From Amia ocellicauda (lineage: Eukaryota > Chordata > Actinopteri > Amiiformes > Amiidae), in NCBI RefSeq assembly GCF_036373705.1, contig NC_089851.1, positions 56,185,940-56,249,939 on the forward strand: DNA of 64,000 bases, in the 5' to 3' direction. Position 1 is the stretch's first letter. The number at the start of each line of letters is the position of its first letter. Positions 24,001 through 57,000 of the stretch are shown piece after piece. The notes beneath the pieces were generated by a model that did not search any database, was not told the origin of the DNA, and was given only the letters and a program-made list of their open reading frames with translations. The translations under genes and the position numbers were made by a program.

Positions 24001-26765
24001 AAGGCAAGCATCTGATTGACAGTGGTCCGTGATCTGCTGTTATGCTACTATGCTACTGACCATTGGGGGAGCGATTGCAAGTAAGAGAGTTAGATATCGA
24101 GAGTCATTGATAGATTGATAGATAGATGGATGGATGGATGGACGGCAAGGCAAGCATCTGATTGACAGTGGTCCGTGATCTGCTGTTATGCTACTATGCT
24201 ACTGACCATTGGGGGAGCGATAGCAAGCAAGAGAGTTAGATATCGAGAGTCATAGATAGATAGATAGATAGATGGATGGATGGACGGCAAGGCAAGCATC
24301 TGATTGACATTGGTCCGTGATCTGCTGTTATGCTACAATGCTACTGACCATTGGGGGAGCAATAGCAAGCAAGAGAGTTAGATATCAAGAGTCATAGATA
24401 GATAGATAGATAGATGGATGGATGGACGGCAAGGCAAGCATCTGATTGACAGTGGTCCGAGATCTGCTGTTATGCTACTATGCTACTGACCATTGGGGGA
24501 GCGATAGCAAGCAAGAGAGTTAGATATCAAGAGTCATAGATAGGTAGATGGATGGGTGGATGGATGGACGGCAAGGCAAGCATCTGATTGACAGTGGTCC
24601 GTGATCTGCTGTTATGCTACTTTGCTACTGACCATTGGGGGAGCGATAGCAAGCAAGAGAGTTAGATGTCAAGAGTCATAGATAGATAGATAGATGGATG
24701 GATGGATGGACGGCAAGGCAAGCATCTGATTGACAGTGGTCCGTGATCTGCTGTTATGCTACTATGCTACTGACCATTGGGGGGGCGATAGCAAGCAAGA
24801 GAGTTAGATATCAAGAGTCATAGATAGATAGATAGATAGATGGATGGATGGACGGCAAGGCAAGCATCTGATTGACAGTGGTCCGTGATCTGCTGTTATG
24901 CTACTATGCTACTGACCATTGGGGGAGCGATAGCAAGCAAGAGAGTTAGATATCGAGAGTCATTGATAGATTGATAGATAGATGGATGGATGGATGGACG
25001 GCAAGGCAAGCATCTGAGTGACAGTGGTCCGTGATCTGCTGTTATGCTACTATGCTACTGACCATTGGGGGAGCGATAGCAAGTAAGAGAGTTAGATATC
25101 GAGAGTCATTGATAGATTGATAGATAGATGGATGGATGGATGGACGGCAAGGCAAGCATCTGATTGACAGTGGTCCGTGATCTGCTGTTATGCTACTATG
25201 CTACTGACCATTGGGGGAGCGATAGCAAGCAAGAGAGTTAGATATCGAGAGTCATAGATAGATAGATAGATAGATGGATGGATGGACGGCAAGGCAAGCA
25301 TCTGATTGACATTGGTCCGTGATCTGCTGTTATGCTACAATGCTACTGACCATTGGGGGAGCAATAGCAAGCAAGAGAGTTAGATATCAAGAGTCATAGA
25401 TAGATAGATAGATAGATGGATGGATGGACGGCAAGGCAAGCATCTGATTGACAGTGGTCCGAGATCTGCTGTTATGCTACTATGCTACTGACCATTGGGG
25501 GAGCGATATCAAGCAAGAGAGTTAGATATCAAGAGTCATAGATAGATAGATAGATGGATGGATGGATGGACGGCAAGGCAAGCATCTGATTGACAGTGGT
25601 CCGTGATCTGCTGTTATGCTACTATGCTACTGACCATTGGGGGAGCGATAGCAAGCAAGAGAGTTAGATATCAAGAGTCATAGATAGGTAGATGGATGGG
25701 TGGATGGATGGACGGCAAGGCAAGCATCTGATTGACAGTGGTCCGTGATCTGCTGTTATGCTACTTTGCTACTGACCATTGGGGGAGCGATAGCAAGCAA
25801 GAGAGTTAGATATCGAGAGTCATAGATAGATAGATAGATAGATAGATGGATGGATGGACGGCAAGGCAAGCATCTGATTGACAGTGGTCCGTGATCTGCT
25901 GTTATGCTACTATGCTACTGACCATTGGAGGAGCGATAGCAAGCAAGAGAGTTAGATATCGAGAGTCATAGATAGATAGATAGATAGATAGATAGATGGA
26001 TGGACGGCAAGGCAAGCATCTGATTGACAGTGGTCCGTGATCTGCTGTTATGCTACTATGCTACTGACCATTGGGGGAGCGATAGCAAGCAAGAGAGTTA
26101 GATATCGAGAGTCATAGATAGATAGATAGATAGATGGATGGATGGACGGCAAGGCAAGCATCTGATTGACAGTGGTCCGTGATCTGATGTTATGCTACTA
26201 TGCTACTGACCATTGGGGGAGCGATAGCAAGCAAGAGAGTTAGATATCAAGAGTCATAGATAGATAGATAGATAGATAGATGGATGGATGGACGGCAAGG
26301 CAAGCATCTGATTGACAGTGGTCCATGATCTGCTGTTATGCTACTATGCTACTGACCATTGGGGGAGCGATAGCAAGCAAGAGAGTTAGATATCGAGAGT
26401 CATAGATAGATAGATAGATAGATGGATGGATGGACGGCAAGGCAAGCATCTGATTGACAGTGGTCCGTGATCTGCTGTTATGCTACTATGCTACTGACCA
26501 TTGGGGGAGCGATAGCAAGCAAGAGAGTTAGATATCGAGAGTCATAGATAGATAGATAGATAGATGGATGGATGGACGGCAAGGCAAGCTCCTGATTGAC
26601 AGTGGTCCGTGATCTGCTGTTATGCTACTATGCTACTGACCATTGGGGGAGCGATAGCAAGCAAGAGAGTTAGATATTGAGAGTCATAGATAGATAGATG
26701 GATGGATGGACGGCAAGGCAAGCTCCTGATTGACAGTGGTCCGTGATCTGCTGTTATGCTACTAT
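1..26765 (+). repeat. ~144-bp satellite array A with (GATA)n(GGAT)n core
   Basis: About 187 head-to-tail monomers of 142-150 bp. Each monomer contains GATCTGCTGTTATGCTAC, then TGACCATTGGGGGAGCGATA, GAGAGTTAGATATC, a run of GATA units that turns into GGAT units, and GGCAAGGCAAGCATCTGATTG. Length differences between monomers come almost entirely from the GATA/GGAT counts. Monomer variants recur in a fixed order: GTCCGAGATC (for GTCCGTGATC) at 1001, 3873 and 6745, exactly 2872 bp apart, so the working unit is about 20 monomers. I see no gene in the array. The array runs off the left edge of the window and ends inside a monomer at ..CTACTAT where tRNA module 1 begins. Confidence 0.97.
2500..16800 (+). 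repeat. Duplicated ~7.2-kb super-unit inside satellite array A
   Basis: Rare monomer variants occur twice at a constant distance. AATAGCATGC is at 6651 and 13831, and GAATGATAGC at 8371 and 15551, both 7180 bp apart. TTCATTGGGG is at 3331 and 10799, 7468 bp apart, which is 288 bp or two monomers more. A block of roughly 50 monomers has therefore been duplicated in tandem, with a later two-monomer gain or loss between the copies. The outer limits given are approximate because the flanking monomers are nearly identical. Confidence 0.75.
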
Positions 26766-26787
26766 CAGCAGCAGCAGCTGCAGATTT

Positions 26788-26861
26788 GGCGCCGTGGCTC
26801 AGTTGGTTAAAGCGCCTGTCTAGTAAACAGGAGGTCCTGGGTTCAAATCCCAGCGGTGCCT
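26788..26861 (+). tRNA. tRNA-Thr(AGT), module 1
   Basis: 74 nt. Acceptor arms GGCGCCG and CGGTGCC pair completely with one G-U. The anticodon stem is CCTGT/ACAGG with loop CTAGTAA, giving anticodon AGT (threonine, A34 normally edited to inosine). The B box GGTTCAAATCC keeps T54, T55 and C56 and closes a CTGGG/CCCAG stem. The D stem has one C-A mismatch. No T run follows directly; the first TTTT is about 58 nt downstream at 26919, so transcripts would carry a long trailer. It looks functional. Confidence 0.9.
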
Positions 26862-27147
26862 TAGGCGGGCTTTCTGTGCTCCTTGCGAAGCTTGTGCTTC
26901 CGCTTTGTCGATCATCAGTTTTAGCAAGATAGGCTTATCGTAAAGCCATCAGAGGACGTAATGAACCGGAAAGCCAACTGGACAGACGCCGGATTGTACA
27001 GAAGAACCAGAACCTAAAGGACACGCGCTACGGCCAACATCCAATTCCCATTGCCGCCCCTGGACAGTCGCAACAGGGAGCTTGTTGCTCCCGTCAACCT
27101 TACGTTTTCACCTCTGTGTGCTTCCTTTGTTGCAGCCTGCATCCAGA

Positions 27148-27227
27148 TTTTGTTTTGTTTTGTTTTGTTTTGTTTTGTTTTGTTTTGTTTTGTTTTGTTT
27201 TGTTTTGTTTTGTTTTGTTTTGTTTTG
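27148..27227 (+). repeat. (TTTTG)16 pentanucleotide tract
   Basis: Sixteen perfect TTTTG units between the two threonine tRNA genes. Every unit contains a four-T run, the minimal RNA polymerase III termination signal on this strand. The long FVLFC-type reading frames over it are artefacts of the repeat. Confidence 0.95.
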
Positions 27228-27270
27228 TGCCTTACACCTGAGTGTAGGCACTGGGGAATGGGAGAGTCCT

Positions 27271-27344
27271 GGCACCGTGGCTTAGTTGGTCAAAGCGCCT
27301 GTCTTGTAAACAGGAAACCCTGGGTTGGACTCCCAGCAGTGCCT
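27271..27344 (+). tRNA. tRNA-Thr(TGT), module 1, probably degenerate
   Basis: 74 nt, starting GGCACCGTGGCTTAGTTGG. The anticodon loop CTTGTAA gives TGT. The acceptor 3' arm CAGTGCC leaves a C6-A67 mismatch that is shared by all copies here. The B box reads GGTTGGACTCC: invariant C56 is replaced by G, which should weaken TFIIIC binding and the D-loop/T-loop contact. Probably a decaying copy. Confidence 0.75.
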
Positions 27345-27508
27345 TGGTTTATGTTGGCCTAGGCAATGGAAAGGAAGTTTCTAAACGCTCAATACATTTT
27401 TGCACGACGGCCGTCCGCAGCAAGCAGCTTAAGGTTACTGTAGCCGCAGTCTGGCAAGCTGACCGCCAGAAGTAGAAAAAATAACAAGGGGCGGGGGGAA
27501 AAGCAGGC

Positions 27509-27582
27509 CGTCCCTGGGTGGATTCAAACCACCATCCTTTCGGTTAAGAGCCAAACGCGCTGACCGATTGCGCCACAGACAT
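27509..27582 (-). tRNA. tRNA-Asn-type gene with CTT (Lys) anticodon, module 1
   Basis: On the minus strand the body matches vertebrate tRNA-Asn (GGCGCAATCGGTCAGCGCG, 3' acceptor CAGGGAC, discriminator G), but the anticodon loop is CTCTTAA instead of CTGTTAA, so GTT has become CTT. The 5' acceptor arm reads ATGTCTG, apparently through loss of two bases, and leaves mismatches at 1-72 and 3-70. The B box is GGTTTGAATCC (C56 to T). AAAA at 27499-27502 gives a TTTT terminator just past the 3' end on the minus strand. Probably a tRNA pseudogene. Confidence 0.75.
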
Positions 27583-27672
27583 GATGTGGTTGCTGCAGTC
27601 GTGCAGTTCCTTCACAGTTGCCAAAAATCATTTCCAGCACACGATTTTCTTTGTCGTTGAATGCAACATACG

Positions 27673-28937
27673 TGACCATTGGGGGAGCGATAGCAAGCAA
27701 GAGAGTTAGATATCAAGAGTCATAGATAGATAGATAGATAGATGGATGGACGGCAAGGCAAGCATCTGATTGACAGTGGTCCGTGATCTGCTGTTATGCT
27801 ACTATGCTACTGACCATTGGGGGAGCGATAACAAGCAAGAGAGTTAGATATCGAGAGTCATTGATAGATAGATAGATAGATAGATGGATGGACAGCAAGG
27901 CAAGCATCTGATTGACAGTGGTCCGTGATCTGCTGTTATGCTACTATGCTACTGACCATTGGGGGAGCGATAGCAAGCAAGAGAGTTAGATATCGAGAGT
28001 CATAGATAGATAGATAGATAGATGGATGGATGGACGGCAAGGCAAGCATCTGATTGACAGTGGTCCGTGATCTGCTGTTATGCTACAATGCTACTGACCA
28101 TTGGGGGAGCGATAGCAAGCAAGAGAGTTAGATATCAAGAGTCATAGATAGATAGATGGATGGATGGATGGACGGCAAGGCAAGCATCTGATTGACAGTG
28201 GTCCGTGATCTGCTGTTATGCTACTATGCTACTGACCATTGGGGGAGCGATAGCAAGCAAGAGAGTTAGATATCGAGAGTCATTGATAGATAGATAGATA
28301 GATGGATGGATGGATGGACGGCAAGGCAAGCATCTGATTGACAGTGGTCCGTGATCTGATGTTATGCTACTATGCTACTGACCATTGGGGGAGCGATAGC
28401 AAGCAAGAGAGTTAGATATCAAGAGTCATAGATAGATAGATAGATAGATAGATGGATGGATGGACGGCAAGGCAAGCATCTGATTGACAGTGGTCCATGA
28501 TCTGCTGTTATGCTACTATGCTACTGACCATTGGGGGAGCGATAGCAAGCAAGAGAGTTAGATATCGAGAGTCATAGATAGATAGATAGATAGATGGATG
28601 GATGGACGGCAAGGCAAGCATCTGATTGACAGTGGTCCGTGATCTGCTGTTATGCTACTATGCTACTGACCATTGGGGGAGCGATAGCAAGCAAGAGAGT
28701 TAGATATCGAGAGTCATAGATAGATAGATAGATAGATGGATGGATGGACGGCAAGGCAAGCTCCTGATTGACAGTGGTCCGTGATCTGCTGTTATGCTAC
28801 TATGCTACTGACCATTGGGGGAGCGATAGCAAGCAAGAGAGTTAGATATTGAGAGTCATAGATAGATAGATGGATGGATGGACGGCAAGGCAAGCTCCTG
28901 ATTGACAGTGGTCCGTGATCTGCTGTTATGCTACTAT
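27673..28937 (+). repeat. Satellite block B between modules 1 and 2
   Basis: About nine monomers of the same satellite in the same orientation. Its last monomers match those before module 1 (for example GCAAGCTCCTGATTG and GATATTGAGAGTC shortly before the junction), so module plus block forms a unit of about 2.17 kb. Confidence 0.95.
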
Positions 28938-28959
28938 CAGCAGCAGCAGCTGCAGATTT

Positions 28960-29033
28960 GGCGCCGTGGCTCAGTTGGTTAAAGCGCCTGTCTAGTAAAC
29001 AGGAGGTCCTGGGTTCAAATCCCAGCGGTGCCT
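28960..29033 (+). tRNA. tRNA-Thr(AGT), module 2
   Basis: Identical in all 74 positions to the module 1 gene: anticodon AGT, complete acceptor and anticodon stems, and B box GGTTCAAATCC. A functional candidate. Confidence 0.9.
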
Positions 29034-29319
29034 TAGGCGGGCTTTCTGTGCTCCTTGCGAAGCTTGTGCTTCCGCTTTGTCGACCATCAGTTTTAGCAAG
29101 ATAGGCTTATCGTAAAGCCATCAGAGGACGTAATGAACCGGAAAGCCAACTGGACAGACGCCGGATTGTACAGAAGAACCAAAACCCTAAGGACACGCGC
29201 TACGGCCTACATCCAATTCCCATTACCGCCCCTGGACAGTCGCAACAGGGAGCTTGTTGCTCCCGTCAACCTTACGTTTTCACCTCTGTGTGCTTCCTTT
29301 GTTGCAGCCTGCATCCAGA

Positions 29320-29434
29320 TTTTGTTTTGTTTTGTTTTGTTTTGTTTTGTTTTGTTTTGTTTTGTTTTGTTTTGTTTTGTTTTGTTTTGTTTTGTTTTGT
29401 TTTGTTTTGTTTTGTTTTGTTTTGTTTTGTTTTG
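29320..29434 (+). repeat. (TTTTG)23 tract
   Basis: Twenty-three perfect TTTTG units between the two threonine tRNAs of module 2. Seven units more than module 1, which explains the 35-bp length difference between otherwise matching segments. Confidence 0.95.
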
Positions 29435-29477
29435 TGCCTTACACCTGAGTGTAGGCACTGGGGAATGGGAGAGTCCT

Positions 29478-29551
29478 GGCACCGTGGCTTAGTTGGTCAA
29501 AGCGCCTGTCTTGTAAACAGGAAACCCTGGGTTTGACTCCCAGCAGTGCCT
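29478..29551 (+). tRNA. tRNA-Thr(TGT), module 2, probably degenerate
   Basis: Same as the module 1 copy except that the B box reads GGTTTGACTCC: invariant C56 is T here and was G in module 1. Two different changes at one invariant base point to independent decay or to a hotspot at this CpG. Confidence 0.75.
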
Positions 29552-29715
29552 TGGTTTATGTTGGCCTAGGCAATGGAAAGGAAGTTTCTAAACGCTCAAT
29601 ACATTTTTGCACGACGGCCGTCCGCAGCAAGCAGCTTAAGGTTACTGTAGCCGCAGTCTGGCAAGCTGACCGCCAGAAGTAGAAAAAATAACAAGGGGCG
29701 GGGGGAAAAGCAGGC

Positions 29716-29789
29716 CGTCCCTGGGTGGATTCGAACCACCATCCTTTCGGTTAAGAGCCAAACGCGCTGACCGATTGCGCCACAGACAT
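29716..29789 (-). tRNA. tRNA-Asn-type gene with CTT anticodon, module 2
   Basis: Loop CTCTTAA (anticodon CTT) on a tRNA-Asn body, with an intact B box GGTTCGAATCC but the same damaged 5' acceptor arm ATGTCTG as module 1. The TTTT terminator lies close to the 3' end on the minus strand. If expressed, the anticodon would be read as lysine on an asparagine tRNA body; the broken acceptor stem makes a stable product unlikely. Confidence 0.75.
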
Positions 29790-29879
29790 GATGTGGTTGC
29801 TGCAGTCGTGCAGTTCCTTCACAGTTGCCAAAAATCATTTCCAGCACACGATTTTCTTTGTCGTTGAATGCAACATACG

Positions 29880-31210
29880 TGACCATTGGGGGAGCGATAG
29901 CAAGCAAGAGAGTTAGATATCAAGAGTCATAGATAGATAGATAGATAGATGGATGGACGGCAAGGCAAGCATCTGATTGACAGTGGTCCGTGATCTGCTG
30001 TTATGCTACTATGCTACTGACCATTGGGGGAGCGATAACAAGCAAGAGAGTTAGATATCGAGAGTCATTGATAGATAGATAGATAGATAGATGGATGGAC
30101 AGCAAGGCAAGCATCTGATTGACAGTGGTCCGTGATCTGCTGTTATGCTACTATGCTACTGACCATTGGGGGAGCGATAGCAAGCAAGAGAGTTAGATAT
30201 CGAGAGTCATAGATAGATAGATAGATAGATGGATGGATGGACGGCAAGGCAAGCATCTGATTGACAGTGGTCCGTGATCTGCTGTTATGCTACAATGCTA
30301 CTGACCATTGGGGGAGCGATAGCAAGCAAGAGAGTTAGATATCAAGAGTCATAGATAGATAGATGGATGGATGGATGGACGGCAAGGCAAGCATCTGATT
30401 GACAGTGGTCCGTGATCTGCTGTTATGCTACTATGCTACTGACCATTGGGGGAGCGATAGCAAGCAAGAGAGTTAGATATCGAGAGTCATTGATAGATAG
30501 ATAGATAGATGGATGGATGGATGGACGGCAAGGCAAGCATCTGATTGACAGTGGTCCGTGATCTGATGTTATGCTACTATGCTACTGACCATTGGGGGAG
30601 CGATAGCAAGCAAGAGAGTTAGATATCAAGAGTCATAGATAGATAGATAGATAGATAGATGGATGGATGGACGGCAAGGCAAGCATCTGATTGACAGTGG
30701 TCCGTGATCTGCTGTTATGCTACTATGCTACTGACCATTGGGGGAGCGATAGCAAGCAAGAGAGTTAGATATCGAGAGTCATAGATAGATAGATAGATAG
30801 ATAGATGGATGGATGGACGGCAAGGCAAGCATCTGATTGACAGTGGTCCGTGATCTGCTGTTATGCTACAATGCTACTGACCATTGGGGGAGCGATAGCA
30901 AGCAAGAGAGTTAGATATCAAGAGTCATAGATAGATAGATGGATGGATGGATGGACGGCAAGGCAAGCATCTGATTGACAGTGGTCCGTGATCTGCTGTT
31001 ATGCTACTATGCTACTGACCATTGGGGGAGCGATAGCAAGCAAGAGAGTTAGATATCGAGAGTCATTGATAGATAGATAGATAGATGGATGGATGGATGG
31101 ACGGCAAGGCAAGCATCTGATTGACAGTGGTCCGTGATCTGATGTTATGCTACTATGCTACTGACCATTGGGGGAGCGATAGCAAGCAAGAGAGTTAGAT
31201 ATCAAGAGTC

Positions 31211-31256
<46 letters not shown>

Positions 31257-33594
31257 GGATGGATGGACGGCAAGGCAAGCATCTGATTGACAGTGGTCCG
31301 TGATCTGCTGTTATGCTACTATGCTACTGACCATTGGGGGAGCGATAGCAAGCAAGAGAGTTAGATATCGAGAGTCATAGATAGATAGATAGATAGATGG
31401 ATGGATGGACGGCAAGGCAAGCATCTGATTGACAGTGGTCCGTGATCTGCTGTTATGCTACAATGCTACTGACCATTGGGGGAGCGATAGCAAGCAAGAG
31501 AGTTAGATATCGAGAGTCATAGATAGATAGATAGATAGATGGATGAATGGACGGCAAGGCAAGCACCTGATTGACAGTGGTCCGTGATCTGCTGTTATGC
31601 TACTATGCTACTGACCATTGGGGGAGCGATAGCAAGCAAGAGAGTTAGATATCGAGAGTCATAGATAGATAGATAGATGGATGGATGGACGGCAAGGCAA
31701 GCATCTGATTGACAGTGGTCCGTGATCTGCTGTTATGCTACTATGCTACTGACCATTGGGGGAGCGATAGCAAGCAAGAGAGTTAGATATCGAGAGTCAT
31801 TGATAGATAGATAGATAGATGGATGGATGGATGGACGGTAAGGCAAGCATCTGATTGACAGTGGTCCGTGATCTGCTGTTATGCTACTATGCTACTGACC
31901 ATTGGGGGAGCGATAGCAAGCAAGAGAGTTAGATATCGAGAGTCATTGATAGATAGATAGATGGATGGATGGATGGACGGCAAGGCAAGCATCTGATTGA
32001 CAGTGGTCCGTGATCTGCTGTTATGCTACTATGCTACTGACCATTGGGGGAGCGATAGCAAGCAAGAGAGTTAGATATCGAGAGTCATAGATAGATAGAT
32101 AGATAGATGGATGGATGGCAAGGCAAGCATCTGATTGACAGTGGTCCGTGATCTGCTGTTATGCTACTATGCTACTGACCATTGGGGGAGCGATAGCAAG
32201 CAAGAGAGTTAGATATCGAGAGTCATTGATAGATAGATAGATAGATGGATGGATGGATGGACGGTAAGGCAAGCATCTGATTGACAGTGGTCCGTGATCT
32301 GCTGTTATGCTACTATGCTACTGACCATTGGGGGAGCGATAGCAAGCAAGAGAGTTAGATATCGAGAGTCATAGATAGATAGATAGATAGATGGATGGAT
32401 GGACGGCAAGGCAAGCATCTGATTGACAGTGGTCCGTGATCTGCTGTTATGCTACAATGCTACTGACCATTGGGGGAGCGATAGCAAGCAAGAGAGTTAG
32501 ATATCAAGAGTCATAGATAGATAGATAGATAGATGGATGGATGGACGGCAAGGCAACCATCTGATTGACAGTGGTCCGTGATCTGCAGTTATGCTACTAT
32601 GCTACTGACCATTGGGGGAGCGATAGCAAGCAAGAGAGTTAGATATCGAGAGTCATTGATAGATAGATAGATAGATGGATGGATGGATGGACGGTAAGGC
32701 AAGCATCTGATTGACAGTGGTCCGTGATCTGCTGTTATGCTACTATGCTACTGACCATTGGGGGAGCGATAGCAAGCAAGAGAGTTAGATATCGAGAGTC
32801 ATTGATAGATAGATAGATGGATGGATGGATGGATGGACGGCAAGGCATGCATCTGATTGACAGTGGTCCGTGATCTGCTGTTATGCTACTATGCTACTGA
32901 CCATTGGGGGAGCGATAGCAAGCAAGAGAGTTAGATATCGAGAGTCATAGATAGATAGATAGATAGATGGATGGATGGACGGCAATGCAAGCATCTGATT
33001 GACAGTGGTCCGTGATCTGCTGTTATGCTACAATGCTACTGACCATTGGGGGAGCGATAGCAAGCAAGAGAGTTAGATATCAAGAGTCATAGATAGATAG
33101 ATAGATAGATGGATGGATGGACGGCAAGGCAACCATCTGATTGACAGTGGTCCGTGATCTGCAGTTATGCTACTATGCTACTGACCATTGGGGGAGCGAT
33201 AGCAAGCAAGAGAGTTAGATATCGAGAGTCATAGATAGATAGATAGATAGATGGATGGATGGATGGACGGCAAGGCAAGCATCTGATTGACAGTGGTCCG
33301 TGATCTGCTGTTATGCTACTATGCTACTGACCATTGGGGGAGCAATAATAAGCAAGAGAGTTAGATATCAAGAGTCATAGATAGATAGATAGATAGATGG
33401 ATGGACGGCAAGGCAAGCACCTGATTGACAGTGGTCCGTGATCTGCTGTTATGCTACTATGCTACTGACCATTGGGGGAGAGAAAGCAAGCAAGAGAGTT
33501 AGATATTGAGAGTCATAGATAGATGGATGGATGGATGGACGGCAAGGCAAGAACCTGATTGACAGCGGTCCGTGATCTGCTGTTATGCTACTAT
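29880..33594 (+). repeat. Satellite block C between modules 2 and 3
   Basis: About 26 monomers. The first part copies block B: the variant GATAACAAGC at 30035-30044 matches the one at 27828-27837 at the expected offset. One monomer near 31210-31255 has an expanded GATA run. Towards the end, substitutions such as GCAATAATAAGC accumulate near module 3. Confidence 0.95.
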
Positions 33595-33616
33595 CAGCAG
33601 CAGCAGCTGCAGGTTT

Positions 33617-33690
33617 GGCGCCGTGGCTCAGTTGGTTAAAGCGCCTGTCTAGTAAACAGGAGGTCCTGGGTTCAAATGCCAGCGGTGCCT
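33617..33690 (+). tRNA. tRNA-Thr(AGT), module 3, likely pseudogene
   Basis: Anticodon AGT and the acceptor stem are kept, but the B box reads GGTTCAAATGCC: C61 is G, which breaks the conserved G53-C61 pair closing the T loop. Likely inactive or poorly folded. Confidence 0.75.
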
Positions 33691-33976
33691 TAGGCGGGCT
33701 TTCTGTGCTCCTTGCGAAGCTTGTGCTTCCGCTTTGTCGACCATCAGTTTTAGCAAGATAGGCTTATCGTAAAGCCATCAGAGGACGTAATGAACCGGAA
33801 AGCCAACTGGACAGACACCGGTTTGTAAAGAAGAACCAGAACCCAAAGGACACGCGCTACGGCCAACGTCCAATTCCCATTACCGCCCCTGGACAGTCGC
33901 AACAGGGAGCTTGTTGCTCCCGTCAACCTTACGTTTTCACCTCTGTGTGCTTCCTTTGTTGCAGCCTGCATCCAGA

Positions 33977-34067
33977 TTTTGTTTTTGTTTTGTTTTGTTT
34001 TGTTTTGTTTTGTTTTGTTTTGTTTTGTTTTGTTTTGTTTTGTTTTGTTTTGTTTTGTTTTGTTTTG
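33977..34067 (+). repeat. (TTTTG)~18 tract with one 5-T unit
   Basis: TTTTG units with one TTTTTG near the start (33982-33987). The position between the two threonine tRNAs is the same as in modules 1, 2 and 5. Confidence 0.95.
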
Positions 34068-34110
34068 TGCCTTACACCTGAGTGTAGGCACTGGGGAATG
34101 GGAGAGTCCT

Positions 34111-34184
34111 GGCACCATGGCTTAGTTGGTCAAAGCGCCTGTCTTGTAAACAGGAAACCCTGAGTTTGACTCCCAGCAGTGCCT
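34111..34184 (+). tRNA. tRNA-Thr(TGT), module 3, likely pseudogene
   Basis: Anticodon TGT. The acceptor arm is GGCACCA (position 7 G to A, pair lost), and the T arm reads GAGTTTGACTCC, with both a stem base and C56 changed. Probably dead. Confidence 0.72.
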
Positions 34185-34348
34185 TGGTTTATGTTGGCCT
34201 AGGCAATGGAAAGGAAGTCTCTAAACGCTCAATACATTTTTGCACGACGGCCGTCCGCAGCAAGCAGCTTAAGGTTACTGTAGCCGCAGTCTGGCAAGCT
34301 GACCGCCAGAAGTAGAAAAAATAACAAGGGGCGGGGGGAAAAGCAGGC

Positions 34349-34422
34349 CGTCCCTGGGTGGATTCGAACCACCATCCTTTCGGTTAAGAGCCAAACGCGC
34401 TGACCGATTGCGCCACAGACAT
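34349..34422 (-). tRNA. tRNA-Asn-type gene with CTT anticodon, module 3
   Basis: Same as module 2: loop CTCTTAA, 5' acceptor arm ATGTCTG damaged, B box GGTTCGAATCC intact, TTTT terminator at 34339-34342 on the minus strand. Confidence 0.75.
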
Positions 34423-34512
34423 GATGTGGTTGCTGCAGTCGTGCAGTTCCTTCACAGTTGCCAAAAATCATTTCCAGCACACGATTTTCTTTGTCGTTGA
34501 ATGCAACATACG

Positions 34513-37496
34513 TGACCATTGGGGGAGCGATAGCAAGCAAGAGAGTTAGATATCAAGAGTCATAGATAGATAGATAGATAGATGGATGGACGGCAAGGCA
34601 AGCATCTGATTGACAGTGGTCCGTGATCTGCTGTTATGATACTATGCTACTGACCATTGGGGGAGCGATAGCAAGCAAGAGAGTTAGATATCAAGAGTCA
34701 TAGATAGATAGATAGATAGATGGATGGATGGACGGCAAGGCAAGCATCTGATTGACAATGGTCCGTGATCTGCAGTTATGCTACTATGCTACTGACCATT
34801 GGGGGAGCGATAGCAAGCAAGAGAGTTAGATATCGAGAGTCATAGATAGATAGATAGATAGATAGATGGATGGAAGGACGGCAAGGCAAGCATCTGATTG
34901 ACAGTGGTCCGTGATCTGCTGTTATGCTACAATGCTACTGACCATTGGGGGAGCGATAGCAAGCAAGAGAGTTAGATATCAAGAGTCATAGATAGATAGA
35001 TAGATAGATGGATGGATGGACGGCAAGGCAAGCATCTGATTGACAGTGGTCCGTGATCTGCAGTTATGCTACTATGCTACTGACCATTGGGGGAGCGATA
35101 GCAAGCAAGAGAGTTAGATATCGAGAGTCATAGATAGATAGATAGATAGATGGATGGATGGACGGCAAGGCAAGCATCTGATTGACAGTGGTCCGTGATC
35201 TGCTGATATGCTACTATTCTACTGACCATTGGGGTAGCGATAGTAAGCAAGAGAGTTAGATATCAAGAGTCATAGATAGATAGATAGATGGATGGATGGA
35301 TGGACGGCAAGGCAAGCATCTGATTGACAGTGGTCCGTGATCTGCTGTTATGCTACTATGCTACTGACCATTGGGGGAGCGATAGCAAGCAGGAGAGTTA
35401 GATATCGAGAGTCATAGACAGATAGATAGATAGATGGATGGATGGACGGCAAGGCAAGCATCTGATTGACAGCGGTCCGTGATCTGATGTTATGCTACTA
35501 TGCTACTGACCATTGGGGGAGCGATAGCAAGCAAGAGAGTTAGATATCGAGAGTCATAGATAGATGGATAGATAGATGGATAGATAGATAGATAGATAGA
35601 TAGATGGATGGACGGCAAGGCAAGCATCTGATTGACAGTGGTCCGTGATCTGATGTTATGCTACTATGCTACTGACCATTGGGAGAGCGATAGCAAGCAG
35701 GAGAGTTAGATATCGAGAGTCATAGACAGATAGATAGATAGATGGATGGATGGACGGCAAGGCAAGCATCTGATTGACAGTGGTCCGTGATCTGCTGTTA
35801 TGCTACTATGCTACTGACCATTGAGGGAGCGATAGCAAGCAAGAGAATTAGATATCGAGAGTCATAGATAGATATATAGATGGATGGACGGCAAGGCAAG
35901 CATCTGATTGACAGTGGACCGTGATCTGCTGTTATGCTACTATGCTACTGACCATTGGGGGAGCGATAGCAAGCAGGAGAGTTAGATATCGAGAGTCATA
36001 GACAGATAGATAGATAGATGGATGGATGGACGGCAAGGCAAGCATCTGATTGACAGTGGTCCGTGATCTGCTGTTATGCTACTATGCTACTGACCATTGA
36101 GGGAGCGATAGCAAGCAAGAGAATTAGATATCGAGAGTCATAGATAGATATATAGATGGATGGACGGCAAGGCAAGCATCTGATTGACAGTGGTCCGTGA
36201 TCTGCTGTTATGCTACTATGCTACTGACCATTGAGGGAGCGATAGCAAGCAAGAGAATTAGATATCGAGAGTCATAGATAGATATATAGATGGATGGACG
36301 GCAAGGCAAGCATCTGATTGACAGTGGTCCATGATCTGCTGTTATGCTACTATGCTACTGACCATTGGGGGAGCGATAGCAAGCAAGAGAGTTAGATATC
36401 AAGAGTCATAGATAGATAGATAGATGGATGGATGGACGGCAAGGCAAGCATCTGATTGACAGTGGTCCGTGATCTGCTGTTATGCTACAATGCTACTGAC
36501 CATTGGGGGAGCGATAGCAAGCAAGAGAGTTAGATATCGAGAGTCATAGATAGATAGATAGATAGATAGATGGATGGATGGACGGCAAGGCAAGCATCTG
36601 ATTGACAGTGGTCCATGTTCTGCTGTTATGCTACAATGATACTGACCATTGGGGGAGCGATACCAAGCAAGAGAGTTAGATATCGAGAGTCATAGATAGA
36701 TGGATGGATGGATGGACGGCAAGGCAAGCATCTGATTTACAGTGGTCCGTGATCTGCTGTTATGCTACTATGCTACTGACCATTGGGGAACGATAGCATG
36801 CAAGAGAGTTAGATATCGAGAGTCATAGCTAGATAGATAGATAGATGGATGGATGGACGGCAAGGCAAGCATCTGATTGACAGTGGTCTGTGATCTGCTG
36901 TTATGCTACTATGCTACTGACCATTGAGGGAGCGATAGCAAGCAAGAGATTTAGATATCGAGAGTCATCGATAGATATATAGATGGATGGACGGCAAGGC
37001 AAGCATCTGATTGACAGTGGTCCGAGATCTGCTGTTATGCTACTATGCTACTGACCATTGGGGGAGCGATAGCAAGCAAGAGAGTTAGATAGCGAGAGTC
37101 ATAGATAGATAGATAGATAGATAGATGGATGGATGGACGGCAAGGCAAGCATCTGATTGACAGTGGTCCGTGAACTGCTGTTATGCTACTATGCTACTGA
37201 CCATTGGGGGAGCGATAGCAAGCAAGAGAGTTAGATATCGAGAGTCATAGATAGATAGATAGATAGATAGATGGATGGATGGATGGCAAGGCAAGCATCT
37301 GATTGACAGTGGTCCGTGATCTGCTGTTATGCTACTATGCTACTGACCATTGGGGGAGCGATAGCAAGCAAGAGAGTTATATATCGAGAGTCATAGATAG
37401 ACAGATAGATAGATAGATAGATGGATGGATGGATGGATGGACGGCAAGGCAAGCACCTGATTGACAGCGGTCCGTGATCTGCTGTTATGCTACTAT
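34513..37496 (+). repeat. Satellite block D, diverged, with shortened monomers
   Basis: About 21 monomers with many private substitutions. It includes a local subfamily with TTGAGGGAGC, GAGAATTAGATATC and a GATATATAGATGG core (35821, 36097, 36231). These monomers are only about 134-138 bp because the GATA core is shorter. They alternate with monomers carrying CATAGACAGATAG. Confidence 0.95.
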
Positions 37497-37518
37497 CAGC
37501 AGCAGCAGCGGCAGATTT

Positions 37519-37592
37519 GGCGCCGAGGCTTAGTTGGTTAAAGCGCCTGTCTAGTAAACAGGAGGTCCTGGGTTTAAATCCCAGCGGTGCCT
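37519..37592 (+). tRNA. tRNA-Thr(AGT), module 4, recombinant and probably weak
   Basis: Anticodon AGT with good acceptor and anticodon stems. T8 is changed to A (GGCGCCGAGG) and the B box is GGTTTAAATCC (C56 to T). The D arm has CTTAG, as in the Thr(TGT) genes, rather than CTCAG, so the gene looks like an AGT/TGT hybrid. Function doubtful. Confidence 0.72.
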
Positions 37593-37756
37593 TGGTTTAT
37601 GTTGGCCTAGGCAATGGAAAGGAAGTTTCTAAACGCTCGATACATTTTTGCAAGATGGCCGTCCGCAGCAAGCAGCTTAAGGTTACTGTAGCCGCAGTCT
37701 GGCAAGCTGACCGCCAGAAGTAGAAACAATAACAAGGGGCGGGGGGAAAAGTGGGC

Positions 37757-37830
37757 CGTCCCTGGGTGGGTTCGAACCACCATCCTTTCGGTTAACAGCC
37801 GAACGCGCTGACCGATTGCGCCACAGAGAC
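37757..37830 (-). tRNA. tRNA-Asn(GTT), module 4
   Basis: 74 nt on the minus strand. Acceptor GTCTCTG/CAGGGAC is complete, the discriminator is G, the anticodon stem is TTCGG/CCGAA with loop CTGTTAA (anticodon GTT), and the B box is GGTTCGAACCC. AAAA at 37747-37750 supplies a TTTT terminator seven nucleotides past the 3' end. A fully functional candidate and the intact counterpart of the CTT-anticodon copies in modules 1-3. Confidence 0.92.
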
Positions 37831-37930
37831 AGACGGAGGTGTTGCGGTTGCTGCAGTCGTGCAGTTCCTTCACAGTTGCCAGAAATCATTTCCAGCACAC
37901 GATTTTCTTTGTCGTTGAATGCAACATACG

Positions 37931-38037
37931 TGACCATTGGAAGAGCGATAGCAAGCAAGAGAGTTAGATATCGAGAGTCATAGATAGATAGATAGATAGA
38001 TGGATGGATGGATGGACGGCAAGGCAAGCATCTGATT
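37931..38037 (+). repeat. Satellite block E, less than one monomer
   Basis: A partial monomer (TGACCATTGG to GCATCTGATT) between modules 4 and 5. It stops before ACAGTGGTCC and runs directly into module spacer sequence GCAAGATAGGCTTATCG. This junction is not shared with any other module. Confidence 0.88.
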
Positions 38038-38261
38038 GCAAGATAGGCTTATCGTAAAGCCATCAGAGGACGTAATGAACCGGAAAGCCAACTGGACAGA
38101 CGCCGGTTTGTAAAGATGAACCAGAACCCAAAGGTCACGCGCTACGGCCAACATCCAATTCCCATTGCCGCCCCTGGACAGTCGCAACAGGGAGCTTGTT
38201 GCTCCTCTCAACCTTACGTTTTCACCTCTGTGTGCTTCCTTTGTTGCAGCCTGCATCCAGA

Positions 38262-38371
38262 TTTTGTTTTGTTTTGTTTTGTTTTGTTTTGTTTTGTTTT
38301 GTTTTGTTTTGTTTTGTTTTGTTTTGTTTTGTTTTGTTTTGTTTTGTTTTGTTTTGTTTTGTTTTGTTTTG
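38262..38371 (+). repeat. (TTTTG)22 tract
   Basis: Twenty-two perfect TTTTG units upstream of the intact Thr(TGT) gene of module 5. Confidence 0.95.
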
Positions 38372-38414
38372 TGCCTTACACCTGGGTGTAGGCACTGGGG
38401 AAAGAGAGAGTCCT

Positions 38415-38488
38415 GGCACCGTGGCTTAGTTGGTCAAAGCACCTGTCTTGTAAACAGGAAACCCTGGGTTCGACTCCCAGCAGTGCCT
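38415..38488 (+). tRNA. tRNA-Thr(TGT), module 5, best preserved copy
   Basis: 74 nt, anticodon TGT in loop CTTGTAA. The B box GGTTCGACTCC matches the consensus, unlike modules 1-3. The only flaws are the C6-A67 acceptor mismatch common to all copies and A26. No early T run; TTTTT lies some 50 nt downstream. The likeliest functional TGT gene in the window. Confidence 0.87.
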
Positions 38489-38652
38489 TGGTTTATGTTG
38501 GCCTAGGCAATAGAAAGGAAGTTTCTAAACGCTCAATACATTTTTGCAAGATGGCCGTCCGCAGCAAGCAGCTTAAGGTTACTGTAGCCGCAGTCTGGCA
38601 AGCTGACCGCCAGAAGTAGAAACAATAACAAGGGGCGGGGGGAAAAGTGGGC

Positions 38653-38726
38653 CGTCCCTGGGTGGATTCGAACCACCATCCTTTTGGTTAACAGCCAAAC
38701 ACGCTGACCGATTGCGCCACAGAGAC
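38653..38726 (-). tRNA. tRNA-Asn(GTT), module 5
   Basis: 74 nt on the minus strand. Complete acceptor GTCTCTG/CAGGGAC, anticodon loop CTGTTAA (GTT), anticodon stem TTTGG/CCAAA, and B box GGTTCGAATCC. AAAA at 38643-38646 supplies the terminator. A functional candidate. Confidence 0.92.
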
Positions 38727-38826
38727 AGACAGAGGTGTTGTGTTTGCTGCAGTCGTGCAGTTCCTTCACAGTTGCCAAAAATCATTTCCAGCACACGATT
38801 TTCTTTGTCGTTGAATGCAACATACG

Positions 38827-40855
38827 TGACCATTGGGGGAGCGATAGCAAGCAAGAGAGTTAGATAACAAGAGTCATAGATAGATAGATAGATAGATGGA
38901 TGGACGGCAAGGCAAGCATCTGATTGACAGTGGTCCATGATCTGCTGTTATGCTACTATGCTACTGACCATTGGGGGAGCGATAGCAAGCAAGAGAGTTA
39001 GATATCGAGAGTCATTGATAGATAGATAGATAGATAGATGGATGGATGGACGGCAAGGCAAGCATCTGATTGACAGTGGTCCGTGATCTGCTGTTATGCT
39101 ACTATGCTACTGACCATTGGGGGAGCGATAGCAAGCAAGAGAGTTAGATATCGAGAGTCATAGATAGATAGATAGATAGATAGATGGATGGACGGCAAGG
39201 CAAGCATCTGATTGACAGTGGTCCGTGATCTGCTGATTTGCTACTATGCTACTGACCATTGGGGGAGCGATAGCAAGCAAGAGAGGTAGATATCGAGAGT
39301 CATAGATTGATAGATAGATAGATGGATGGATGGACGGCAAGGCAAGCATCTGATTGACAGTGGTCCATGATCTGCTGTTATGCTACAATGCTACTGACCA
39401 TTGGGGGAGCGATAGCAAGCAAGAGAGTTAGATATCAAGAGTCATAGATAGATAGATAGATTGATGGATGGATGGACGGCAAGGCAAGCATCTGATTGAC
39501 AGTGGTCCGTGATCTGCTGTTATGCTACAATGCTACTGACCATTGGGGGAGCGATAGCAAGCAAGAGAGTTAGATATCAAGAGTCATAGATAGATAGATG
39601 GATGGATGGATGGACGGCAAGGCAAGCATCTGATTGACAGTGGTCCGTGATCTGCTGTTATGCTACTATGCTACTGACCATTGGGGGAGCGATAGCAAGC
39701 AAGAGAGTTAGATATCGAGAGTCATTGATAGATAGATAGATAGATGGATGGATGGATGGACGGCAAGGCAAGCATCTGATTGACAGTGGTCCGTGATCTG
39801 CTGTTATGCTACTATGCAACTGACCATTGGGGGAGCGATAGCAAGCAAGAGAGTTAGATATCAAGAGTCATAGATAGATAGATGGATGGATGGACGGCAA
39901 GGCAAGCATCTGATTGACAGTGGTCCGTGATCTGCTGTTATGCTACTATGCTACTGACCATTGGGGGAGCGATAGCAAGCAAGAGAGTTAGATATCGAGA
40001 GTCATAGATAGATAGATAGATAGATGGATGGACGGCAAGGCAAGCATCTGATTGACAGTGGTCCGTGATCTGCTGTTATGCTACTATGCTACTGACCATT
40101 GGGGGAGCGATAGCAAGCAAGAGAGTTAGATATCGAGAGTCATAGATAGATAGATAGATAGATGGATGGATGGACGGCAAGGCAAGCATCTGATTGACAG
40201 TGGTCCGTGATCTGCTGTTATGCTACTATGCTACTGACCATTGGGGGAGCGATAGCAAGCAAGAGAGTTAGATATCGAGAGTCATAGATAGATAGATAGA
40301 TAGATGGATGGATGGATGGACGGCAAGGCAAGCACCTGATTGACAGTGGTCCGTGATCTGCTGTTATGCTACTATGCTACTGACCATTGGGGGAGCGATA
40401 GCAAGCAAGAGAGTTAGATATCGAGAGTCATAGATAGATAGATAGATAGATGGATGGACGGCAAGGCAAGCATCTGATTGACAGTGGTCCGTGATCTGCT
40501 GTTATGCTACTATGCTACTGACCATTGGGGGAGCGATAGCAAGCAAGAGAGTTAGATATCGAGAGTCATTGATAGATAGATAGATACATGGATGGATGGA
40601 TGGACGGCAAGGCAAGCATCTGATTGACAGTGGTCCGTGAACTGCTGTTATGCTACTATGCTACTGACCATTGGGGGAGCGATAGCAAGCAAGAGAGTTA
40701 GATATCGAGAGTCATAGATAGATAGATAGATAGATGGATGGATGGACGGCAAGGCAAGCATCTGATTGACAGTGGTCCGTGATCTGCTCTTATGCTACTA
40801 TGCTACTGACCATTGGGGGAGCGATAGCAAGCAAGAGAGTTAGATATCGAGAGTC

Positions 40856-40897
<42 letters not shown>

Positions 40898-42069
40898 GGA
40901 TGGATGGACAGCAAGGCAAGCATCTGATTGACAGTGGTCCGTGATCTGCTGTTATGCTACTGACCATTGGGGGAGCGATAGCAAGCAAGAGAGTTAGATA
41001 TCAATAGTCATAGATAGATAGATGGATGGATGGATGGACGGCAAGGCAAGCATCTGATTGACAGTGGTCCGTGATCTGCTGTTATGCTACTGACCATTGG
41101 GGGAGCGATAGCAAGCAAGAGAGTTAGATATCGAGAGTCATAGATAGATAGATAGATAGATGGATGGATGGACGGCAAGGCAAGCATCTGATTGACAGTG
41201 GTTCTTGATCTGCTGTAATGCTACTATGCTACTGACCATTGGGGGAGCGATAGCAAGCAAGAGAGTTAGATATCGAGAGTCATAGATAGATAGATAGATA
41301 GATGGATGGATGGACGGCAAGGCAAGCATCTGATTGACAGTGGTCCGTGATCTGCTGTTATGCTACTATGCTACTGACCATTGGGGGAGCGATCGCAAGC
41401 AAGAGAGTTAGATATCAAGAGTCATAGATAGATAGATAGATAGATGGATGGACGGCAAGGCAAGCATCTGATTGACAGTGGTCCGTGATCTGCTGTTATG
41501 CTACTATGCTACTGACCATTGGGGGAGCGATAGCAAGCAAGAGAGTTAGATATCGAGAGACATAGATACATAGATAGATAGATGGATGGATGGATGGACG
41601 GCAAGGCAAGCATCTGATTGACAGTGGTCTGTGATCTGCTGTTATGCAACTATGCTACTGACCATTGGGGGAGCGATAGCAAGGAAGAAATTTAGATATC
41701 GAGAGTCATAGATAGATGGATGGATGTATGGACGGCAAGGCAAGCATCTGATTGACAGTGGTCCGTGATCTGCTGTTATGCTACAATGCTACTGACCATT
41801 GGGGGAGCGATAGCAAGCAAGAGAGTTAGATATCGAGAGTCATAGATAGATAGATAGATAGATAGATGGATGGATGGACGGCAAGGCAAGCATCTGATTG
41901 ACAGTGGTTCTTGATCTGCTGTTATGCTACTATGCTACTGACCATTGGGGGAGTGATAGCAAGCAAGAGAGTTAGATATCGAGAGTCATAGATAGATAGA
42001 TAGATAGATAGATAGATGGATGGATGGATGGACGGCAAGGCAAGCACCTGATTGACAGTGGTCCGTGAT
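38827..42069 (+). repeat. Satellite block F, up to the telomere-like junction
   Basis: About 23 monomers in the same orientation. Two consecutive monomers (near 40960 and 41090) have lost the internal TATGCTAC, reading GTTATGCTACTGACC, as expected from slippage between the two GCTAC copies. The array stops inside a monomer at GTCCGTGAT, directly before CCTAACCGTAACCC. Confidence 0.95.
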
Positions 42070-54057: not shown

Positions 54058-57000
54058 ATCAATGACTCTCGATATCTAACTCTCTTGAGCTTGCTATCGC
54101 TCCCGCCAATGGTCAGTAGCATAGTAGGCAGTAACAGCAGATCCCGGACCACTGTCAATCAGATGCTTGCCTTGCCGTCCATCCCATCCATCTATCTATC
54201 TCTATCTATCTATGACTCTTGATATCTAACTCCTGCTTGCTATCTCCCCCAAGGGTCAGAGCATTGCAGCAAAAAGCAGATCAGACCACTCAATCAGATG
54301 CTTGCCATGGCCGTCCATCCATCCATCCATCTATCTATCTATCTATGACTCTCTATATCTAACCTCTTGCTTCTATCGCTCCCCCAATGGTCAGTACATA
54401 GTAGCAGTAACAGCAGATCACGACCACTGTCAATCAGATGCTTGCCTTGCCCATCCATCCATCCATCCATCTATCTATCTATCTATGACTGCTGATATCT
54501 AACTCTCTTGCTTGCTAGCGCTCCCCCATGGTCAGTAGCATAGTAGTATGCCACTTCTCAGTGCTTGCCTTGCCGTCATCCATCAATCTATCTGAGTCTA
54601 TCAATGACTCTCGATATCTAACTCTCTTACTTGCTATCGCTCCCCCAATGGTCAGTAGCATAGTAGCATAACAGCAGATCACGGACCACTGTCAATCAGA
54701 TGCTTGCCTTGCCGTCCATCCATCCATCCATATCTATCTATCTATCTATGACTCTTGATATCTAACTCTCTTGCTTGCTATCGCTCCCCCAATGGTCAGT
54801 AGCATAGTAGATAACAGCAGATCACGGACCACTGTCAATCAGATGCTTGCCTTGCCGTCCATCCATCCATCTATCTATCTATCTATCTATGACTCTTGAT
54901 ATCTAACTCTCTTGCTTGCTATCGCTCCCCCAATGGTCAGTAGCATTGTAGCATAACAGCAGATCACGGACCACTGTCAATCAGATGCTTGCCTTGCCGT
55001 CCATCCATCCATCTATCTATCTATCCTATCTATGACTCTCGATATCTAACTCTCTTGCTTGCTATCGCTCCCCCAATGGTCAGTAGCATAGTAGCATAAC
55101 AGCAGATCACGGACCACTGTCAATCAGATGCTTGCCTTGCCGTCCATCCATCCATCCATCTATCTATCAATCTATCATTGACTCTTGATATCTAACTCTC
55201 TTGACTTGCTATCGCTCCCCCAATGGTCAGTAGCAATAGTAGCATAACAGCAGATCACGGACCACTGTCAATCAGATGCTTGCCTTGCCGTCCATCCATC
55301 CATCCATCTATCTATCTATCTATCAATGACTCTCGATATCTAACTCTCTTACTTGCTATCGCTCCCCCAATGGTCAGTAGCATAGTAGCATAACAGCAGA
55401 TCACGGACCACTGTCAATCAGATGCTTGCCTTGCCGTCCATCCATCCATCTATCTATCTATCTATCTATGACTCTTGATATCTAACTCTCTTGCTTTGCT
55501 ATCGCTCCCCCAATGGTCAGTAGCATAGTAGCATAACAGCAGATCACGGACCACTGTCACTCAGATGCTTGCCTTGCCGTCCATCCATCCATCCATCTAT
55601 CTATCTATCTATCTATGACTCTCGATATCTAACTCTCTTGCTTGCTATCGCTCCCCCAATGGTCAGTAGCATAGTAGCATAACAGCAGATCACGGACCAC
55701 TGTCAATCAGATGCTTGCCTTGCCGTCCATCCATCCATCTATCTATCTATCTATCTATGACTCTTGATATCTAACTCTCTTGCTTGCTATCGCTCCCCCA
55801 ATGGTCAGTAGGCATTGTAGCATAACAAGCAGATCACGGACCAATGTCAATCAGATGCTTGCCTTGCCGTCCATCCATCCATCCATCTATCTATCTATCT
55901 ATCAATGACTCTCGATATCTAACTCTCTTACTTGCTATCGCTCCCCCAATGGTCAGTAGCATAGTAGCATAACAGCAGATCACGGACCACTGTCAATCAG
56001 ATGCTTGCCTTGCCGTCCATCCATCCATCCATCTATCTATCTATCTATCAATGACTCTCGATATCTAACTCTCTTACTTGCTATCGCTCCCCCAATGGTC
56101 AGTAGCATAGTAGCATAACAGCAGATCACGGACCACTGTCAATCAGATGCTTGCCTTGCCGTCCATCCATCCATCTATCTATCTATCTATCTATGACTCT
56201 TGATATCTAACTCTCTTGCTTGCTATCGCTCCCCCAATGGTCAGTAGCATAGTAGCATAACAGCAGATCACGGACCACTGTCACTCAGATGCTTGCCTTG
56301 CCGTCCATCCATCCATCCATCTATCTATCTATCTATCAATGACTCTCGATATCTAACTCTCTTGCTTGCTATCGCTCCCCCAATGGTCAGTAGCATAGTA
56401 GCATAACAGCAGATCACGGACCACTGTCAATCAGATGCTTGCCTTGCCGTCCATCCATCCATCTATCTATCTATCTATCTATGACTCTTGATATCTAACT
56501 CTCTTGCTTGCTATCGCTCCCCCAATGGTCAGTAGCATTGTAGCATAACAGCAGATCACGGACCAATGTCAATCAGATGCTTGCCTTGCCGTCCATCCAT
56601 CTATCTATCTATCTATCTATCTATCTATGACTCTCGATATCTAACTCTCTTGCTTGCTATCGCTCCCCCAATGGTCAGTAGCATAGTAGCATAACAGCAG
56701 ATCACGGACCACTGTCAATCAGATGCTTGCCTTGCCGTCCATCCATCCATCCATCTATCTATCAATCTATCAATGACTCTCGATATCTAACTCTCTTACT
56801 TGCTATCGCTCCCCCAATGGTCAGTAGCATAGTAGCATAACAGCAGATCACGGACCACTGTCAATCAGATGCTTGCCTTGCCGTCCATCCATCCATCCAT
56901 CTATCTATCTATCTATCAATGACTCTCGATATCTAACTCTCTTACTTGCTATCGCTCCCCCAATGGTCAGTAGCATAGTAGCATAACAGCAGATCACGGA

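Follow-up and report, generated by a model that had tools for sequence, protein, structure and literature searches.

A multi-gene tRNA module in a short-monomer satellite of Amia ocellicauda and its probable amplification as a passenger

Transfer RNA (tRNA) genes that lie inside satellite DNA raise the question of how they came to be there and whether their multiplication owes anything to the genes themselves. This question is posed by a stretch of 64,000 nucleotides from the Amia ocellicauda genome (C2:56185940-56249939, in an assembly of 988 Mb and 385 contigs), here called the window, in which ARAGORN and Rfam find the same 14 tRNA genes, 13 of them within 26788-38727 and grouped into five modules. 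It appears highly probable that a single fragment of a tRNA gene cluster was joined once into the satellite, was amplified together with the surrounding monomers and was spread by segmental duplication, with the genes as passengers.

Modules, joins and common descent

The module bodies start at 26766 and end at 38826, in exact agreement with the original prediction, a first reading of this stretch which had placed five blocks of Thr(AGT), Thr(TGT) and Asn genes within satellite monomers. All five blocks do lie within the satellite, but the full set of three genes is confined to modules 1-3, as module 4 is without Thr(TGT) and module 5 without Thr(AGT). Likewise, the third gene is Asn(GTT) in modules 4 and 5, as had been said, whereas modules 1-3 carry the anticodon CTT (Lys) on an Asn-like body whose acceptor stem is damaged.

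26766..27672 (+): module 1, A-type; Thr(AGT), (TTTTG)n, Thr(TGT) and a minus-strand Asn-like gene with a CTT anticodon
28938..29879 (+): module 2, A-type; tandem duplicate of module 1 plus flanks
33595..34512 (+): module 3, A-type; three genes, each damaged
37497..37930 (+): module 4; two genes, Thr(AGT) and Asn(GTT), the first fused to what was the 3' flank of Thr(TGT)
38039..38826 (+): module 5; two genes, Thr(TGT) and Asn(GTT); truncated on the left, where it has a join of its own

The right join, ACATACG to TGACCATTGG, is common to all five modules and the left join, CTACTAT to CAGCAGC, to modules 1-4; the junctions predicted to be identical in modules 1-3 are therefore so, and are found in further modules as well. 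Module 5 has a left join of its own, GATTG to CAAGATAGG. A whole monomer reads CTACTAT-GCTAC-TGACC, of which the module replaces the five bases GCTAC, and no target-site duplication was read at the window joins. In module 4 the stretch between the Thr genes has been deleted, with a breakpoint within the common GTGCCTT, and Thr(TGT) is gone. Modules 1 and 2 are related by a tandem duplication, in which 25976-27228 matches 28144-29400 at 99.0% and 27148-28882 matches 29355-31089 at 98.9%. Over the 446 bases of their right halves, modules 1-3 differ mutually by 2-5 bases and from module 5 by 17-20.

A comparison beyond the window was made with 20 loci of 10 kb each (L009-L028), which were chosen at known hits and so form a non-random sample. 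Right ends were sought by the module's own sequence with up to two mismatches, regardless of the bases that follow, and 88/88 of those found in the window and these loci continue into TGACCATTGG. Left joins are more varied, with 31 of A-type, 49 of C-type (GCTACTTACC to TAACGTCC), one odd and seven modules without a join within 1.3 kb. The C-type modules are without Thr(AGT), and their Thr gene reads CGT in 49/49. In the window and L009-L030, a run containing AGCTAGCTAAATAGCTAG in the first right-hand monomer was found beside 49/50 C-type, 0/33 A-type and 1/6 untyped modules, and those 50 are all of its occurrences among about 1,161 monomers there. As this marker travels with the C-type modules, module and adjoining monomer were copied as one unit. 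The 88/88 common right ends and the distribution of the marker (49/50 vs 0/33) are explained by a single join amplified with the satellite and not by independent insertions, thus lending strong support to the prediction that one insertion was amplified together with the array, although the direction of that insertion is inferred.

Within the loci the right ends are spaced 0.9-4.8 kb apart, mostly 1-2.7 kb, and both A-type and C-type units repeat head-to-tail on one strand per locus, in the manner of a tandem tRNA array. A tree built from 80 modules unites the C-type rows with support of 95/87, while its A-type part is weakly supported and leaves many inner branches open; the closest rows to modules 1-3 of the window come from 55.17-55.19 Mb. 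Further anticodons were found in modules of L020, L022 and L025, namely ATT (four, at 52.57 Mb) and CCT (55.17 Mb) on Asn bodies and TCT on a Thr body (57.19 Mb). A BLAST search with the left flank of one module returned no matches.

The carrier itself has the properties of a satellite, with tandem monomers of near-fixed length that are homogenised and arranged in long arrays, two of which fall in the window.

1..42069 (+): satellite array 1; 1-42020 by Tandem Repeats Finder, final bases read to 42069
54058..64000 (-): satellite array 2, in opposite orientation to array 1, beyond a 200-N gap

Monomers of array 1 are mostly 142 or 146 bp long and change length four bases at a time within a GATA/GATG run, and the mean pairwise difference among 260 monomers is 2.3-2.5%. 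Array 1 has no module across 1-26758, and a tRNA gene search of array 2 (54058-64000) found none. Higher-order repeats are also present, in that multi-monomer units including the module were duplicated as a block (98.9-99.0%) and the marker co-travels with its modules. The 200-N gap at 53858-54057 precedes the satellite of opposite orientation, and the assembled distance and order across it may differ from the true ones. A satellite 30-mer gave 0 matches against viral contigs, as did six satellite 20-mers (three and their complements) against literature text.

Exact matches were then counted on both strands of the genome, with a reversed control pattern that gave 0 every time. The right join occurs 581 times (174 forward, 407 reverse); the search of the assembly for modules with satellite flanks, proposed with the prediction, thus yields a copy count beyond chance, and to speak of a satellite that spreads RNA polymerase III genes is valid as a description. 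Exact occurrences number 436 for a 25-mer of the module interior, 169 for a Thr(AGT) 30-mer, 202 for the C-type left join and 12,145 for the satellite 30-mer, or about 21 satellite 30-mers to one right join. Since the satellite 30-mer matches 181 of about 335 window monomers, the whole satellite may comprise some 22,000 monomers, or about 3 Mb, by rough extrapolation.

The places of all patterns, the C-type left join included, are on C2 among the matches listed, from 51.06 to 60.71 Mb. Confinement to C2 is shown only for two complete lists, because the other patterns give only about the first hundred places among the matches listed: the A-type left join, with 45 occurrences at 52.80-60.71 Mb, and the CTT form, with seven places in three clusters at 55.18, 56.21 and 57.21 Mb (the last, L030, holds 2,500 N). 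A DNA similarity search, in which 40 of 736 candidates were scored, placed all 40 on C2. An inverted counterpart of window 23.5-47.3 kb lies at C2:55163000-55190999, keeps the order of modules 1-5 and adds one module upstream; its identities, in window coordinates, are as follows.

23473-28519: 96.1%
29340-34068: 99.4%
35588-40874: 99.1%
38827-43287: 98.3%
43288-47284: 99.5%

The end of array 1 abuts a degenerate (CCCTAA)n telomere-like tract (window 42070-42640), and beyond it lies a tRNA gene outside the modules, which we take to be intron-bearing and Tyr-like.

44384-44472 (+): tRNA gene whose anticodon arm holds an insert; without isotype in ARAGORN, 59.4 bits in Rfam

The inverted copy also holds the tract and this gene at matching places, the gene at L029 2825-2913 (-) and again without isotype in ARAGORN. 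Further along the window, open frames resembling exons of an unnamed gene occupy 46240-50930 (+), with one piece similar to DUF6729 (E 1.1e-07), and 50983-53300 (-) holds a decayed Gypsy-like element in which an integrase zinc-binding domain, weak matches to a protease and a zinc knuckle and, within the gag-like piece, a SCAN domain were recognised.

Gene integrity and tests for selection

The state of the 13 module genes was scored by strict structural rules, with bit scores from Rfam. U8 and the T-loop C are universal in tRNA, and the latter matters for the B box.

26788..26861 (+): Thr(AGT), module 1; 66.7 bits; single D-stem mismatch
27271..27344 (+): Thr(TGT), module 1; 64.2 bits; invariant T-loop C (B box) changed to G
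27509..27582 (-): Asn-bodied gene with anticodon CTT (Lys), module 1; 51.9 bits; two acceptor mismatches, B-box C changed
28960..29033 (+): Thr(AGT), module 2; 66.7 bits; single D-stem mismatch
29478..29551 (+): Thr(TGT), module 2; 66.1 bits; B-box C changed to T
29716..29789 (-): Asn-bodied gene with anticodon CTT, module 2; 54.5 bits; two acceptor mismatches
33617..33690 (+): Thr(AGT), module 3; 58.0 bits; T-stem pair broken
34111..34184 (+): Thr(TGT), module 3; 53.7 bits; B-box C lost, two more pairs broken
34349..34422 (-): Asn-bodied gene with anticodon CTT, module 3; 54.5 bits; two acceptor mismatches
37519..37592 (+): Thr(AGT), module 4; 65.2 bits; U8 and B-box C changed
37757..37830 (-): Asn(GTT), module 4; 69.7 bits; intact
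38415..38488 (+): Thr(TGT), module 5; 69.0 bits; intact except for an acceptor mismatch
38653..38726 (-): Asn(GTT), module 5; 70.6 bits; intact

If the acceptor mismatch of the module 5 Thr(TGT), which each of the window's four Thr(TGT) genes carries, is allowed, 3/13 genes are intact, namely this gene and the Asn genes of modules 4 and 5. A TTTT run starts 7 bases past the Asn genes and 53-58 past the Thr genes.

The same picture was sought in 81 modules, again with the common acceptor mismatch allowed in Thr(TGT/CGT). Strictly intact genes number 19/30 for Thr(AGT), 20/29 for Thr(TGT) and 21/31 for Asn in A-type modules, 44/49 for Thr(CGT) and 0/47 for Asn in C-type modules, and 0/2 in the odd module. 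The C-type Asn genes carry common damage, and therefore it is most likely that they were broken before they were multiplied.

Constraint on the tRNA genes was seen in none of three comparisons, a result to be considered with some caution as homogenisation within arrays can mask it. In modules 1-3 the tRNA sites are no less variable than the spacer (5/222 vs 12/606, p=0.79), and the same applies to the 29 full-length modules of the 31 of A-type (28/221 vs 59/592, p=0.31). In the 49 C-type modules the tRNA sites are the more variable (25/148 vs 35/413, p=0.008, or 0.017 at non-CpG sites), with p=0.001, 0.21 and 0.059 when three locus groups are taken separately. CpG sites vary more than other sites in A-type and C-type modules alike. 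In none of five gene sets is there a significant shortage of substitutions that break a pair or an invariant base; the lowest P for such a shortage, 0.056, comes from the broken C-type Asn.

These results bear on the explanation that selection for tRNA supply, in oocytes for example, keeps or expands the arrays with degraded modules as by-products; this would be compatible with an origin by a single join, but we regard it as unlikely. It would fit the clusters at 53.44, 57.19 and 58.63 Mb in which every counted gene is intact (6, 12 and 9 genes) and the 44/49 intact Thr(CGT) genes, and the extra variability of C-type tRNA sites could, as a guess, stem from transcription; a literature search on tRNA mutation by transcription found no papers. 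Against this, the broken Asn was multiplied too, the tRNA sites equal or exceed the spacer in variability and harmful substitutions are not significantly depleted. Two gene families of a block like zebrafish Chr4R were also sought: for the NLR genes, searched by the fish-specific FISNA domain, 27/27 candidates were scored and gave 21 matches, none on C2, and of the 47 5S ribosomal RNA matches, scored from only 47 of 47,274 candidates, none is on C2, although 5S genes may still lie there. The scored 5S matches were at C8 7.4-9.8 Mb, on contigs C39 and higher and, in one more case, at C8 23.0 Mb. Rfam applied to 10 of the 20 loci found tRNA only. Maternal-specific tRNAs have been hypothesised for zebrafish Chr4R, in the part of that source consulted (PMC11075544), and this speaks in favour of selection for supply. 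The original suggestion that the satellite offers a route to changed tRNA gene dosage nevertheless finds no support here, in view of the damage to most window genes, the 0/47 intact C-type Asn genes and the absence of constraint on tRNA sites relative to the spacer.

Origin and rival explanations

How the modules arose can be pictured as follows. A tRNA-cluster fragment of some 0.9 kb, comprising Thr(AGT), Thr(TGT), (TTTTG)n and an opposite-strand Asn(GTT), would have been joined once into a monomer, displacing five bases, and module and adjoining monomers would then have become part of larger repeat units. Unequal exchange, probably the local motor, would have copied these units in place, and segmental duplication, partly inverted, would have distributed blocks tens of kilobases long over some 10 Mb of a single contig. 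The derived forms would have come from deletions and point changes: module 4 by loss between the Thr genes, module 5 by left truncation, and the large C-type subfamily by loss of Thr(AGT), a change of the other Thr to CGT and breakage of Asn. The satellite was presumably there before the insertion, rather than the reverse, and its amplification was apparently independent of the tRNA genes, which would make them passengers.

Several points weigh against this account. A search of the genome for exact copies of the module end in which the next base is not T gave 0, though a diverged source would escape it. Seven of the 88 modules have no left join within the distance searched, the 20 loci were picked at known hits, and haplotype duplication in the assembly could inflate the copy numbers. 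There are also the clusters with every counted gene intact and the identical copies of Thr(AGT), 16/30; recent homogenisation accounts for both equally well as use. With regard to polarity, the C2 region carries other tRNA-like genes too.

No module end was found outside the satellite by exact matches, and the polarity of the insertion is therefore inferred. There is the possibility, which we consider quite unlikely, that a tandem tRNA array came first and that the satellite expanded locally from its spacer. Exact module ends are joined solely to the satellite base, and the C-type arrays resemble tRNA arrays with few spacer monomers. Furthermore, the C-type arrays at 51.42, 51.79 and 52.16 Mb (L013, L015 and L019) share one terminal join, of a tRNA 5' part that is presumably Asp-like to satellite, beside which ARAGORN finds Pro(CGG)- and Leu(GAG)-like genes; Rfam gave 0 matches on L013 4940-10000 at E 0.1, and the Pro and Leu genes of L013 are thus weak or decayed. 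Set against such an order of events are the whole monomers, which keep the GCTAC that is absent at A-type modules, the long module-free stretches (window 1-26758 and 54058-64000) and the satellite 30-mers, some 21-fold commoner than right joins. An insertion into existing satellite is preferred.

As for a source, the sole match to a canonical Asn 30-mer is at C7:47043976, and this candidate was rejected as no long similarity to the module surrounds the gene. The Asn gene there aligns to the module 4 Asn over 74 bases at 94.6%, and the 10 kb of this locus contain, by ARAGORN, a Val gene and an Asn gene, one of each.

That collapsed or chimeric repeats or duplicated haplotypes in the assembly created the joins or the counts is very improbable. 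N stretches do occur (200 in the window, and also in L004, L013, L015, L019, L021 and L030), and near-identical blocks stand 1 Mb apart; the copies, on the other hand, differ in point changes, TTTTG length and spacing, and 581 equal joins across differently spaced arrays are no chimera, although haplotypes may inflate the count. Independent insertion of each module into one sequence motif would also yield equal joins, but it is extremely improbable and is contradicted by the data: the co-travelling monomer variant, the two derived left-join classes and the common point changes require shared descent of module and flank, and no target-site duplication was read at the window joins. A retroposon or tRNA-derived short interspersed nuclear element (SINE) is ruled out likewise by the single right join (88/88), the two main left joins and the lack of any target-site duplication read.

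Known systems and significance

Tandem arrays with tRNA genes are known from several organisms. In Xenopus, a 3.18-kb tandem repeat has several tRNA genes per unit and is a functional array not known to have a satellite carrier. The other systems compared here are described as far as the parts of the sources consulted allow.

Of the cases found in which satellite DNA contains tRNA genes, the closest is likewise from a fish. In Harttia catfish, tRNA genes and tRNA-derived satellite DNAs are intermingled with other sequences, tRNA-like parts standing alongside parts of SINEs and long interspersed nuclear elements (LINEs) in complex satellites (PMC11955569). The Amia module, by contrast, is a 0.9-kb piece with several genes that interrupts a satellite of short monomers always at the same point, and its joins and subfamilies can be counted. 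The variable-number tandem repeat of tRNA genes at human 1q23.3 has a 7.3-kb unit with five genes each, in 9-43 units at a single locus, and shares with Amia tRNA genes on both strands of the unit, variable copy number and internal simple repeats (PMC4041453). There the segment itself is the unit, whereas the Amia module rides among 142/146-bp monomers in hundreds of copies spread across some 10 Mb, with broken genes in many of them.

In zebrafish, Region-2 of Chr4R concentrates tRNA genes and has its own satellite, MOSAT-2; tRNA genes inside satellite monomers are not described in the sections consulted (PMC11075544). C2 resembles it in that tRNA genes are concentrated with satellite (the 45 A-type left joins and all seven CTT copies are on C2) and differs in the NLR genes reported above. 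The SYY cluster of tRNA(Ser) and tRNA(Tyr) genes in Arabidopsis, where tandem tRNA genes meet constitutive heterochromatin and are expressed in specific root cells, shares the tandem genes, and the corresponding text makes no mention of a short-monomer satellite carrier (PMC12308677). Nor are satellite monomers mentioned as carrier in what was consulted on the dense tRNA clusters of zebrafish and stickleback and the tRNA tandem repeats of Entamoeba (PMC2888827). The literature search brought up no title or abstract opening in which tRNA genes are described as lying within short satellite monomers, PMC11955569 being the nearest. Amia differs from the known arrays in that a module of several genes sits at a single fixed position in a satellite of short monomers, in the module's copy number and spread, and in the amplification of broken genes.

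The CTT anticodon is of further interest. Two shifts from Asn to Lys by GTT>CTT are given for primates in the consulted part of that report (PMC3923123), and the CTT form of Amia represents the same change, but with a broken acceptor stem and at seven places in three clusters. It is conceivable, though somewhat doubtful, that satellite growth, by multiplying a captured module under relaxed constraint, generates tRNA genes and new anticodons (the large CGT subfamily and the smaller CTT, CCT, ATT and TCT lines) of which some may enter translation; if true, satellite dynamics rather than demand would determine the number of tRNA genes in such a genome.

With hundreds of countable junctions, exchange within the satellite and the duplication of segments can be followed across one region of a chromosome, and satellite turnover would multiply anticodon variants irrespective of their usefulness. 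More generally, repeat growth alone may multiply tRNA genes. The share of tRNA genes that are clustered varies widely between related fishes, according to the section consulted (PMC2888827), and a tRNA module carried by a satellite would offer a concrete and testable route to such differences, in which copies rise with repeat turnover whether they are intact or broken.

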